The notes under the pieces are model-generated. The model searched no databases, was not told where the DNA came from, and saw only the letters and a list, made by a program, of their open reading frames with translations. From Hallerella porci (lineage in GTDB: Bacteria > Fibrobacterota > Fibrobacteria > Fibrobacterales > Fibrobacteraceae), in contig NZ_QGHD01000021.1 in assembly GCF_003148885.1 (NCBI RefSeq), forward strand, positions 1 to 44,982: DNA of 44,982 nt, in the 5' to 3' direction. The first letter of the stretch is position 1. Every line of letters begins with the position of its first letter. This document shows, piece by piece, positions 24,424 through 44,850 of this stretch. The translations under genes were made by a program, and so were the position numbers.

Positions 24424-24438
24424 TTAACATTTCTCATT

Positions 24439-24803
24439 TAAAAAGTCTTCCCGCAACGCTGCAAGAACGAATTTGACATGTTAAATGGCTTGTCGCAGCG
24501 TTGCATGGACGAATTTGACATGTTAAATGGCTTGTCGCAGCGTTGCATGGACGAATTTGACATGTTAAATGGCTTGCCGCAGCGTTGCATGGACGAATTT
24601 GACATGTTAAATGGCTTGCCGCAGCGTTGCATGGACGAATTTGACATGTTAAAAGCCTTGCCGCAGCGTTGCATGGACGAATTTGACATGTTAAATGGCT
24701 TGCCGCAGCGTTGCATGGACGAATTTGACGTGTTAAAAGCCTTCCCGCAACGCTGCATGGACGAATTTGACGTGTTAAAAGCCTTCCCGCAACGCTGCAT
24801 GAG
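24439..24803. repeat. 42-bp tandem repeat array A (about 8.7 copies)
   Basis: Copies begin at 24439, 24481, 24523, 24565, 24607, 24649, 24691, 24733 and 24775, each 42 bp and 85-100% alike. The unit holds GCAGCGTTGCATGG and GACGAATTTGACATG. The first and last copies carry GCAACGCTGC, the reverse complement of the GCAGCGTTGC core of the middle copies. Because 42 is a multiple of three, one frame on each strand stays open across the array (14-residue repeats), but no ribosome binding site or recognisable protein supports translation. The array lies between the cotransporter and the FISUMP lipoprotein gene. Confidence 0.9.
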
Positions 24804-25049: not shown

Positions 25050-25673
25050 ATGGAACTTCACTTGGGAATAAAATTTGTAAAGTTCGCGCTTGGCGCTGCT
25101 TTATTACTCGGGCTTTCTGCTTGTGAAAATTCAAAGATGAATTCAAAAATGACAGACAAACGCGATGGCAAAGTTTATAAGACCGTAAAAATCGGAGTGC
25201 AAACTTGGATGGCAGAAAATTTGAATTACGCTGGGAATGGCGTTTGTTATGAAAATGAGCATAACAACTGCGGAAAATGGGGACGGCTTTATACTTGGCA
25301 TGAAGCACTAAATGCTTGCCCCGAGGGATGGCACTTGCCGTCTGAAGCCGAATGGAAAATCTTAATTGATGCTGTGGGTGGAGAAGATAAAGCAGGCCTT
25401 GCTCTCAAGGCGAAAAATGGTTGGAAAGAAGGCGAAGGAAAAAGTGGTAACGGAACGGAAGCCTTTGGTTTTTCAGCGCTCCCCGCGGGAGGCAGTTACG
25501 ACCGTGGCCGCTACTACTACGCAGGCGAGTACGCTTACTTCTGGTCTAGTACCGAGCACAATAGCCGCATTGCCTACTTCATGTACTTGTACTACGACTA
25601 CGTCTACGCGGGCCTGGCCAGCCGCAATAAGGGCTATGCGTTTTCTATCCGTTGCCTAGAGAACTCCAACTAG
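25050..25673 (+). CDS. FISUMP-domain lipoprotein
   Basis: A 207-aa lipoprotein with the 'Fibrobacter succinogenes major paralogous domain' (TIGR02145). The signal peptide ends in the lipobox LSAC (Cys near 26). The domain follows: YKTVKIGVQTWMAENLNY, CYENEHNNCGKWGRLYTW, a CPEGWHLPSEAEWKILI segment, AFGFSALPAGG, FWSSTEHN and the closing FSIRCLEN. The many paralogues in Fibrobacter are cell-surface proteins of unknown function; some similarity to C-lectin/sulfatase-modifying folds has been suggested in general. A Tyr-rich loop (GRYYYAGEYAYF) sits before FWSSTEHN. It is a single gene inside a repeat-rich accessory segment. Confidence 0.9.
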   Translation: MELHLGIKFVKFALGAALLLGLSACENSKMNSKMTDKRDGKVYKTVKIGVQTWMAENLNYAGNGVCYENEHNNCGKWGRLYTWHEALNACPEGWHLPSEAEWKILIDAVGGEDKAGLALKAKNGWKEGEGKSGNGTEAFGFSALPAGGSYDRGRYYYAGEYAYFWSSTEHNSRIAYFMYLYYDYVYAGLASRNKGYAFSIRCLENSN

Positions 25674-41496: not shown

Positions 41497-41747
41497 TCAA
41501 GCCTCCAAATAGAGTGTTAGTGTTTATGCCTTCGCCCCAATTTGCGAAAGCGGATTTAATATAAACTTCATTTTTGTAAAATCTTACAATTTTATTGTAA
41601 AAAATTATTTGTGAAAATAAAGTTAACTGCTTATTTCGATTCTATTTTGTAAAGAAATTAAGACGAATTCAGCCAATTAGGATTGTGAGCGCTTTGTTTC
41701 ATCCTTCTGATTCTCCCTAAAAAGTGCAGGGAAGTTAGAAAAGCCTT
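41497..41747. promoter_or_regulatory. AT-rich upstream region of the helical gene with TGTAA/TTACA repeats
   Basis: TGTAA (41575-41579), TTACA (41584-41588) and TGTAA (41596-41600) are spaced to form an operator-like cluster about 80-100 bases before the start at 41496. The remaining stretch to 41747 has no gene; its last 20-30 bases are a degenerate partial unit of array B. Confidence 0.35.
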
Positions 41748-42006
41748 CGGACAGTCTCATTTGATTTGCAGGGAAGCTCGCCGAGGTCTCGGACAGTCCC
41801 ATTCGGTTTGCTGGCATACTCGCCGAGGTCTCGGACAGTCTCATTCGGTTTGCTGGCATACTCGCCGAGGTCTCGGACAGTCCCATTCGGTTTGCTGGCA
41901 TACTCGCCGAGGTCTCGGACAGTCCCATTCGGTTTGCTGGCATACTCGCCGAGCCCTCGAACAGCACATTCGGTTTGCAGGGATGCTAGCCGAGGCCTCG
42001 GACAGG
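41748..42006. repeat. 42-bp tandem repeat array B (about 6 copies)
   Basis: Copies begin at 41748, 41790, 41832, 41874, 41916 and 41958, with a partial seventh at 42000. The unit holds CGGACAGTCCCATTCGG, TTTGCTGGCATACTCGCC and GAGGTCT; inside are two small palindromes, GGACAGTCC and CTCGCCGAG. The outer copies are more divergent than the central ones. Two frames per strand stay open because the period is a multiple of three, but no start signal supports a protein. The sequence is unrelated to array A although the period is the same. Confidence 0.9.
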
Positions 42007-42144
42007 GCAATTTTAGTTAGGAATTAGGCAATAGCCTTAACACGAATCGCTTTAGCGATTTTTGGTTCAACTTCTAACTCCTTACACCTCATTTCTCATT
42101 TAACTATATTTGTTGCCACGCCCAAAATTTAAGGAGCATAATCG
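42007..42144. other. Leader of the type ISP restriction gene with repeat words
   Basis: The stretch carries AGTTAGGAATTAGG, an AATCGCT-TTA-GCGATTT hairpin (about 42044-42061) and CTTCTAACTCCTTACACC, the recurrent intergenic words. AAGGAG lies about eight bases before the ATG at 42145, and CTATATTT near 42104 may belong to the promoter. Confidence 0.4.
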
Positions 42145-44850
42145 ATGACGTTTCAAGATGTTCTTTTCGAAATCCGTAAAAAAAGTGCAACAGAACGTGA
42201 AAAGGGTTTTTTATTTGAAAAGCTGATGCAGCGTTTTTTAAGAGAAGATAACCGTTATCAAGAAGAATTTGAAGAAGTTTGGCTTTGGAATGAATTCCCC
42301 TACAAAAATGAATTTAGCGACAAAGGGCAAGATTTAGGCATTGACCTGGTCGCAAAACTGGAAATGGGGGGATTTTGCGCGATTCAATGCAAATGTTATA
42401 ACGAAAATACCGTGATAGAAAAGCCGATGGTCGATTCGTTTATCGCGACTTCGGGAAGGTCGTTTGGAAAACAAGAATCGACGGGGCAAGAATTTATTTT
42501 TACCGAGCGCCTCTGGATTTCGACGACGAATAAATGGGGAAAAAACGCCGAAGATACTTTGAAAAATCAATATCCGCCGGTCGAGCGCCTGAGCGCCCAA
42601 GACTTAGAAGAAAGCAATGTGGATTGGGAGCGTTTAATTAAAAACGAAAAGAATATCCAAAAAACGCCCAAGCATATTTTGGACCATCAAAAAGAAGCCG
42701 TTGAAAAAGCTCTTTTGCATTACCAAGAAAATGAACGCGGAAAACTCATCATGGCATGCGGTACGGGGAAAACTTTTACCGCACTCCAGATTACCGAAAA
42801 TATGCTGAAGGATGGCGGGCTTGTCTTATTTATGGTGCCGTCGATTGCGTTACTCGGCCAAGCGTTGAATGCGTGGATGCAAGATAAAAAGCTCCCGATG
42901 ACACCCATTGGCGTGTGCTCGGATTCTTCGGCATCGAGCGTTAACGACGACATTGCCGAAAGCCTAATCGATTTACCGCTCCCTGCGACAACGAATGCCG
43001 AAACGATTGTCTCTGCCATTTTAAAAGCGAAGAAAAAGGCGAAAGAGAAAAATGAAAACCGCTTAATCGTCGTATTTTCGACGTATCAATCGATAGATCA
43101 AGTGGAGCGTGCACAAAAAACATTACGAGAAAAAATCGATGATGCTGAGTTTGATTTGGTCATTTGCGACGAAGCGCACCGCACAACAGGAGTTAGCTTT
43201 GATATTCAAGGCAAAGAAAAGAAGGACGCCGACTTTGTTAAAATTCACGACGGGAACTTTATCCAGGCAAAGCATCGCCTTTATATGACGGCAACGCCGC
43301 GCGTTTACAGCAGCGAATCGAAAAAAGAAGCGAAAAAGCAAAAAGAAAATGGAAGCGTCAACGATTGCGTTTTATTTTCGATGGATGATGAATCGGTTTA
43401 CGGCAAGGAATTTTACCGCGTAGGCTTTGGTTATGCGGTTGAACACGGGCTTTTGACCGATTACCGCGTGATGGTTTTGACCGTGAGCGATTCGAATTTA
43501 CCGCAAAAGGTAAAAGATGATATTTCGAATAACGAAGGGAATTTGGATTTTGACGAAGCGTGTAAACTCGTGGGCTCTATCAATGCCCTTGCCAAATGCG
43601 TCGAAGGCGATAATGAGCTCATCAAATCGCTAGACCCGAGCCCCATGAAGCGCGCCGTCGCATTCTGTTCCAAAATTGGAAAAGTGGGGGTGAATGATAG
43701 TTCCAAAAATACTGCCGAAGCATTCCCTATTTTGGCTCTTGAGCGCAACGAAGAAATTGCAAAAGAAAATGACGATAACCGCATTCCGTTAAATATCGAA
43801 GCGCGCCATGTCGATGGCTCGATGAAAGCGACCGAAAGAAATGAAATTTTGGATTGGTTAAAAGAAGATACCGAAGAAAACACTTGCCGTATCGTGACCA
43901 ATGTGCGCTGCCTTTCGGAAGGGGTCGATGTCCCCGCCCTCGATGCGGTGCTATTCCTTTCGCCGAGAAATTCGCAAGTCGATGTGGTGCAAAGTGTCGG
44001 TCGCGTCATGCGAAATTTTAAGAAGGGTCTTGCGGGCGAAAAACGCTACGGATACATTATTATCCCGGTTGCGGTGCCCACTTCGCAAGAAGCCTACAAA
44101 GCCTTGGACGATAATAAACGCTACAAAGTCGTGTGGCAAGTGTTAAACGCTTTGCGTTCTCACGATGACCGTTTTAATGCCGAAATTCAACGCGCTTCTT
44201 TGGATTCGCAGCTGCAGCGCATTATTGTCGCAACACCAAAGCCCAAAAAGCCAAGTGAGGTCGCAGGCGGTGCCGTTAATCCGAGCGACCCCAGCCAAAC
44301 AGCAAAAGTTGTCGACGCGATTCAAACTTCCCTCGAATTTGAAGAATATCAAGCCAAATTCAAAGCGCGCCTCGTCGAAAAATGCGGCGAACGCGAATAC
44401 TGGGAAACTTGGGCGGGTAAAGTCGGCGAATATGCGAAGACGTATATCGAAAGAATTAAAAGCTTGGTCCGTGTCCAGGGTGAAATCCAAGATGAATTCC
44501 AAGAATTTGTAAACCAGCTGCGAAAGAATTTAAACCCGAGCATTCAAGACGACGACTGTATCGAAATGCTCGCCCAGCACATGATTACGCGCCCGGTATT
44601 CGAAGCGCTCTTTAGCGATTACCGCTTTGTGGGCAATAATTCGATTTCGCGTTCGATGCAAAAGATGATTGACCTTTTGCAAAAGCAAAATGTCGATATG
44701 GAAAATAGCACTCTCGAAAAGTTCTATGAATCCGTAAAAATGAATGTGAGCGGCATTGATAAATTAGATGGGAAACAAAAAATCATTAAAACCCTTTACG
44801 AAAAATTATTGCTGTCCGGTAAAAGTTCCAACATAAGCACAATATGCTGA
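42145..44850 (+). CDS. Type ISP restriction enzyme, nuclease-helicase part (truncated)
   Basis: A 901-aa product corresponding to the front half of LlaGI/LlaBIII-type single-chain restriction-modification enzymes. The N-terminal Mrr-like nuclease has Asp67 (GIDLVA) and Q-x-K (Gln81, Lys83 in AIQCKCY). The helicase has Walker A ACGTGKT (204-210), DEAH near residue 340 (VICDEAHRTTG), MTATPRVY and the QSVGRVMRN motif VI, then a helical coupler (about 680-887). After LYEK (residue 887, base 44805) the expected continuation into the adenine methyltransferase and target-recognition domains (full length about 1,500-1,650 aa) is replaced by 14 unrelated residues and a TGA. The protein should lack modification and site recognition. 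Confidence 0.8.
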   Translation: MTFQDVLFEIRKKSATEREKGFLFEKLMQRFLREDNRYQEEFEEVWLWNEFPYKNEFSDKGQDLGIDLVAKLEMGGFCAIQCKCYNENTVIEKPMVDSFIATSGRSFGKQESTGQEFIFTERLWISTTNKWGKNAEDTLKNQYPPVERLSAQDLEESNVDWERLIKNEKNIQKTPKHILDHQKEAVEKALLHYQENERGKLIMACGTGKTFTALQITENMLKDGGLVLFMVPSIALLGQALNAWMQDKKLPMTPIGVCSDSSASSVNDDIAESLIDLPLPATTNAETIVSAILKAKKKAKEKNENRLIVVFSTYQSIDQVERAQKTLREKIDDAEFDLVICDEAHRTTGVSFDIQGKEKKDADFVKIHDGNFIQAKHRLYMTATPRVYSSESKKEAKKQKENGSVNDCVLFSMDDESVYGKEFYRVGFGYAVEHGLLTDYRVMVLTVSDSNLPQKVKDDISNNEGNLDFDEACKLVGSINALAKCVEGDNELIKSLDPSPMKRAVAFCSKIGKVGVNDSSKNTAEAFPILALERNEEIAKENDDNRIPLNIEARHVDGSMKATERNEILDWLKEDTEENTCRIVTNVRCLSEGVDVPALDAVLFLSPRNSQVDVVQSVGRVMRNFKKGLAGEKRYGYIIIPVAVPTSQEAYKALDDNKRYKVVWQVLNALRSHDDRFNAEIQRASLDSQLQRIIVATPKPKKPSEVAGGAVNPSDPSQTAKVVDAIQTSLEFEEYQAKFKARLVEKCGEREYWETWAGKVGEYAKTYIERIKSLVRVQGEIQDEFQEFVNQLRKNLNPSIQDDDCIEMLAQHMITRPVFEALFSDYRFVGNNSISRSMQKMIDLLQKQNVDMENSTLEKFYESVKMNVSGIDKLDGKQKIIKTLYEKLLLSGKSSNISTIC

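Follow-up and report, generated by a model that had tools for sequence, protein, structure and literature searches.

Array B, a tandem array of 6.2 copies of a 42-bp unit on the forward strand at 41747..42005 of the window (the whole stretch of DNA analysed here, 44,982 nucleotides of Hallerella porci), is probably one locus of a dispersed class of non-coding, MITE-like minisatellites of the Porphyromonas gingivalis kind, which lie between genes in this species and inherit their unit length by turnover within arrays. We put the probability of this reading at roughly 60%. Family B, to which the array belongs, joins the class by anatomy and period, its sequence descent being unproven. Inherited length alone does not explain why units of 41-42 bp make up both B and the unrelated arrays of a sister species (G005). 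A length-setter other than descent is a tentative possibility: a protein that loads every 41-43 bp, roughly four turns of the helix, or an amplification step of the same size, would then have acted on sequences without relation in two or more sister species.

Two arrays of one period in the window

Tandem Repeats Finder (TRF) called array B with 90% matches, no indels and a score of 392. An earlier note on this DNA had placed it at 41748-42006, and the array is real, with both ends one base off. Among 16 TRF rows in the window (score of at least 40), only two arrays had a period above 23. The other, array A (24447..24801, minus strand, taken as the strand on which its core CATTTAACAYGTCAAATTCGTCC reads), comprised 8.5 copies of a unit assigned to family A of a superfamily A/C/E/G, and its period was likewise 42, as the same note had said. 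Its further statement that the two sequences are unrelated also stood: more than 3 of 100 shuffles equalled the best circular ungapped match over both strands, a profile comparison gave p >0.05 with windows of 16 and 21, and no homology between A and B was detectable at the sequence level. In both arrays the units abut head to tail with no unique spacers between them, which rules out a CRISPR array.

The flanks of array B recur in part at other B loci. A leader edge of the CCTAAAAA type (41716..41746, plus strand) was also present at the array on contig C4 and, more loosely, at that on C8, while the C15 array looked alike by eye only. The loose form of this pattern occurred at three of the four B loci, yet it had 62 matches in 1.24 Mb and is a weak test on its own. 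The tail edge, TCGGACAGGGCA (41998..42014, plus strand), was by eye common to the C4 array. Heptad-like CTAACTC/CTCATTT words, recognized from the sequence and from word counts, adjoin array B at 42070..42102 (plus strand) and are of a kind met around many arrays. At array A the leader edge AACATTTCTCATTTAAAAAGT (24426..24446, plus strand) is like the inner leader segment of other A loci, and the longer CATCATCTACATT leader is absent. The A leader pattern had eight matches, five of which adjoined A units, three of these being arrays; only some A loci showed CTCATTT/AAATGAG ends on inspection by eye.

To the left of array B lies a gene for a DUF6261 protein (Pfam PF19775; 40756..41496, minus strand) and to its right, divergently oriented, one for a type ISP restriction-like protein (Pfam Mrr_cat_2, ResIII, Helicase_C and ISP_coupler; 42145..44850, plus strand). 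Array A sits between a Na/Pi transporter gene and a gene for a FISUMP-domain (Fib_succ_major) protein (25050..25673, plus strand), a domain in keeping with Fibrobacterota; by eye this protein has a tyrosine-rich C-terminal stretch that could be a diversified target. The suggestion that the arrays lie next to accessory genes is partly right, but other arrays adjoin ordinary genes, such as those for a penicillin-binding protein (PBP) and rlmN, and an accessory-gene neighbourhood is no rule for arrays.

A dispersed and species-private class of strict unit length

We surveyed repeat periods in 960 kb of this genome, sampled as 48 stretches of 20 kb that were picked regardless of arrays: 28 in a first set and 20 in a second, the latter on a rough grid drawn once some array positions were known. 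TRF (period 20-200, score of at least 80) found 23 arrays, 11 with a period of 42, two with 41, and one each with 44, 22, 32, 33, 36, 51, 87, 90, 99 and 140. A lag scan independent of TRF, with a minimum of 17 matches in 21, gave 1811 strongly matching positions in 16 clusters at lag 42, against no cluster at 40, four at 41, one at 43, three at 44, none at 46 and six each at 39 and 48; lag 7 likewise gave 16 clusters but just 92 positions. Periods were therefore far from evenly spread, in keeping with the over-representation of 42 bp that the earlier note had proposed to look for, and no other long repeat distance in the 960 kb comes close to 42 in frequency. The sample held 11 non-coding arrays of 41-44 bp, eight of them at 42, or about 33 per genome by proportion, so that perhaps some thirty non-coding arrays of about 42 bp are dispersed between the genes of H. 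porci. Two G-family arrays lay at contig ends (G000:C8:100301-100720, on a contig of 100742, and L153 1-95, on C26); arrays are therefore likely to interrupt the assembly and to be under-counted. One longer array, of 3.2 copies of 140 bp (L149 6532-6976), had no frame open throughout.

The units fall into seven named families, A to G, of which D is mostly 43 bp; a 41-bp unit, H, and a 44-bp array (L059) stand apart. As H is close to one of the forms of G (none of 100 shuffles did as well), it was not counted as independent. Family B has four loci in this genome (the window and contigs C4, C15 and C8), and family A has many. A 23-bp half of roughly CATTTNACNCGNCAAATNYGTCC is common to units of A, C, E and G, with register and strand preserved, and the remaining 19 bp differ more; the four derive from one ancestor. 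The A-E link was weaker than A-C, C-E and E-G, D was linked to A, and F weakly and tentatively to E, the E-F match of the profile comparison (windows 16 and 21) falling on the strand opposite to an in-register junction counted by hand in L063. Family B had no link to any other family in the profile comparison; B-D and B-F links seen at 1-2 of 100 shuffles, with 91 pairs compared, were lost there and dropped. Some arrays are mixed: L046 passes from A to C with a 41-bp step and L051 from C to A with a 42-bp step, and by eye E follows F in L063, an A piece follows G in L050, and A pieces flank D in L023. Since the shared half keeps its register and arrays mix families, part of the equal period is common descent. 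The earlier view that equal period reflects a common mechanism rather than descent is partly supported, by the enrichment of 42 and by unrelated 41-42 bp units in G005, but not by A, C, E and G.

Unit length was strict. Units were located by their similarity to a consensus, a method biased towards whole ones. On that basis, 131 of 142 steps below 60 bp between neighbours of the same family were 42 bp, five were 41 and six were 43, all of the last in D. Across 19 chained arrays with 140 units, D left out, the step was 42 in 116 of 121 cases and 41 in five, against about 501 substitutions counted on minimum spanning trees. Bacterial mutation accumulation yields about one indel per ten substitutions, and changes of length therefore look rare. 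Removal of out-of-register units by recombination would equally yield strict length.

Families B and A/C/E/G are private to H. porci among the genomes searched. Family B matched none of 59 other genomes, five of them of the same genus, and A/C/E/G matched none of 40; the core pattern had no record in genome_contigs, from which the species itself may be left out. One viral contig matched an 18-base B pattern; it held no TRF array, and the match was taken as chance. Of five relatives in the genus, G005 is the nearest by RlmN (95% identity, the others 92-93%). No array was found in 200 kb of G002. A first sample of G001, G003, G004 and G005 (304 kb) had seven TRF arrays, none with a period of 41-44, and lag 42 topped its cluster counts with six weak clusters and 25 positions. 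A larger G005 sample (379 kb, its part of the first sample included) held arrays X (41 bp), Y (42 bp) and Z (41 bp). A joint BLAST query with these units gave 23 matches on ten G005 contigs, X and Z being dispersed and Y at one place, and none in the H. porci genome or in G001-G004, so that X, Y and Z are unrelated to A-G as judged by BLAST only. Stops interrupt all six frames of X and Y and five of six in Z. Between the sister species, unit length seems to have been kept at 41-42 bp while sequence turned over.

One locus has an empty-site feature. Between the PBP gene and rlmN, the 686-bp gap of H. porci contains a C array along with heptads and further repeats, and in four of the five relatives (G001-G004) the gap is 101-102 bp and unrepeated. 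In G005 it measures about 1.0 kb and contains heptad runs and repeats of other kinds, with no 42-bp array; the gap was thus filled independently in the two sister species, or once and then turned over. At another locus, before a phosphoglucomutase-family gene (L051), the upstream gene was different in all five relatives. Words of period 7 (TAAGNTC, CTAATTC/CTCATTT, CCACTAA) were seen in much intergenic DNA (L042, L046, L048, L056, L064 and others), and G005 has heptad arrays of its own before rlmN, of 6.4 and 4.7 copies.

A dispersed minisatellite of this kind would arise when an element made up of a leader edge, a number of units and a tail edge arrives in a gap. Its copy number would then shift via recombination or slippage between units, and new sequence families would emerge within old arrays through register-keeping replacement. 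Because such replacement keeps register, unit length would be passed on even as the sequence changes, and units out of register would be rare. Something may be bound at a protected inverted motif, at least in A/C/E/G. Mobility, the route of amplification and any binding protein are inferred. Against this reading, leaders are only partly shared, the window's own array A lacks the A pattern, and the G005 gap between the PBP gene and rlmN is not empty.

Alternative causes of the 42-bp period

Alternatively, each unit might be the site of an architectural or regulatory protein that needs a spacing of four helical turns, with about 42 bp selected whatever the sequence; we consider this unlikely. 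The exact 42-bp steps in spite of many substitutions are what it would predict, as are the unrelated 41-42 bp arrays of G005, and A/C/E/G units carry a protected inverted motif. The 13 A/C/E/G arrays compared left out the three-unit G array of L041, whose steps are 41 bp, as well as the lone A-type units at the ends of L046 and L051. In these 13, the seven columns that form the TTT and AAAT arms, named from the between-family alignment, were variable in 9 of 91 array-columns, compared with 201 of 455 for the other 35 columns. The probability was 5e-5 when the same seven columns were drawn for all arrays, and none of 20,000 draws of A/T columns per array was as low. The TTT...AAAT motif, as far as sequence conservation can tell, suggests that at least A/C/E/G units bind something. 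Inverted repeats pooled over 12 units also exceeded all 300 shuffles; unit by unit, however, they did so only in D, F, G and Z, and not in A or B. Over the same number of units, the 10.5-bp harmonic of AA/TT was marginal, at p 0.046, and that of A+T content was absent (p 0.35). The 960 kb held no array at 52-53 bp, the sole one at 32 bp had 2.0 copies, the protected motif comes from the one superfamily examined for it, and the binding protein is hypothetical. The helical phasing of a DNA-binding protein, which the earlier note had offered as an example of a common mechanism, thus came out weak.

A replication, repair or transposition process of the lineage could instead duplicate about 42 bp at a time and so give unrelated sequences the same period, an idea we regard as distinctly improbable. 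It would accommodate families with no detected relation, namely A/C/E/G and B in H. porci and X, Y and Z in G005 (the latter compared with A-G by BLAST only), and also arrays within genes. Period 42 (14 codons) recurs in four of these, L048 12855-13133, which encodes a serine-rich linker, L034 1208-1401, L147 4849-4939 and L152 3592-3672; three fall in the 960 kb and the fourth, with 1.9 copies, in the gene-context set described below. A passage of PMC4679880 relays a suggestion that 7-nt repeats mirror a polymerase contact length. On the other side are the many other periods, those of 22, 32, 33, 36, 44, 51, 87, 90, 99 and 140 in H. porci and of 19, 25, 30, 36 and others in G005, and no enzyme or intermediate is known. 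A link to a reverse transcriptase gene amounts to two of the six genus genomes: PF00078 matched in H. porci and G005, the two in which 41-42 bp arrays were seen, a weak coincidence that may be chance.

A reverse transcriptase fragment was observed at a contig edge in H. porci (L137 3-428, at the start of C5), with a D-like 42-bp array downstream at 496-583. Its nearest NCBIfam models, of group II and Drt types, all scored short of the cut-off, and its YVDD context also recalls the reverse transcriptases of diversity-generating retroelements (DGR). A REP/RAYT system was rejected, as Y1 transposases do not track arrays: G002 had five PF01797 matches and no array in 200 kb, and the single match in H. 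porci, on contig C33, was in a fetched locus with no TRF array (period of at least 15, score 60). Contig C33 (locus L083), on which sequence that looks by eye like the end of a tRNA synthetase gene accompanies the Y1 transposase, may be foreign or contaminating.

Structured RNA elements, in which unit hairpins would act in transcripts as terminators, 3' UTR elements or attenuators, are very unlikely. Folding was better than in dinucleotide shuffles for array A (z -7.8) and for a C array over its first 300 nt (z -2.8). Inverted repeats are strong in the units of D, F, G and Z, and when the controls were tandem shuffled units, G (z -3.9) and Z (z -2.3) stood out on one strand. Array B, however, was indistinguishable in folding from shuffles, with z -0.54 on one strand and -0.18 on the other, A, B and C were unremarkable against tandem shuffled units, and compensatory cells were few, 0 to 11 per candidate helix among those listed. 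Gene orientation gave no further support. The gene-context set consisted of 29 arrays of period 40-44 from 60 stretches and the window, of which six were flagged as coding, four at stretch ends were left unclassified and 19 were classified. Two of the six (L034 5494 and L056 8879) were treated as non-coding, because ORFs only run into them and families C and E have no coding signal. The classified arrays lay in nine co-directional, five divergent and five convergent gaps, much as all 86 gaps of at least 400 bp did (39, 27 and 20). Arrays thus showed no preference for gene orientation, and a terminator, promoter or UTR role misfits the class as a whole.

Translation into 14-residue peptide repeats is hardly credible, for although 42 bp is 14 codons and some frames are often open, synonymous changes were in no marked excess in any frame of six families (the largest was B, 25 against 19.7 expected) and odd steps of 41 and 43 occur, never 39 or 45, so that coding does not explain unit length. 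Frames free of stops were present on both strands, as had been noted earlier (three of six in B and three of six in A), and no ORF of at least 100 aa overlaps array B; with the coding signal absent in every frame, the open frames mean little.

Relation to known repeats and significance

Descriptions of bacterial minisatellites usually concern a single family of a single period. MIRU-VNTR of Mycobacterium tuberculosis are dispersed intergenic minisatellites at many loci, with lengths of about 50-100 bp and related sequences, and heterocystous cyanobacteria carry STRR heptamers together with a single family of 37-bp LTRR. Like MIRU-VNTR, the H. porci arrays are one class of dispersed intergenic minisatellites at many loci, but their length is near-constant where that of MIRU-VNTR varies. 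Like STRR and LTRR, they combine intergenic heptads with longer tandem units of one length, but in several 42-bp families rather than one. Among the papers listed from the open library searched, none was a report of such arrays in Fibrobacter.

The closest likeness is one of description. PgRS/MITE464 of P. gingivalis, according to PMC4596501, consists of dispersed, species-private 41-nt tandem repeats whose flanking segments are themselves repetitive and whose terminal inverted repeats match IS elements. On that description the H. porci arrays are alike in privacy, dispersal, near-equal unit length and repetitive flanks, and unlike in belonging to another phylum and in having several families of one period where PgRS has one. 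IS-matching terminal inverted repeats are likewise a PgRS feature; the MITE-likeness of the H. porci arrays is drawn with no transposase, target-site duplication or such ends. The nearness of 41 nt to 42 bp is striking and may be coincidence. BrickBuilt, a second MITE of P. gingivalis described in PMC4596501, has 23-nt dispersed intergenic tandem units with no spacers and a non-repetitive leader and tail, is present in P. gingivalis and a close relative, and has reported promoter activity; the H. porci arrays, too, are dispersed intergenic tandem units with no spacers, but of 42 bp.

In practice, the arrays are candidates for strain typing and likely breakers of assemblies, and chance ORFs within them should not be annotated as proteins. 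For the biology of the lineage, families with no detectable relation occur at nearly one period in one genome, and others in its sister species, which allows unit length to be studied as a matter distinct from unit sequence. Should the length be set by a process or a protein, this lineage would be a natural system for finding that cause.
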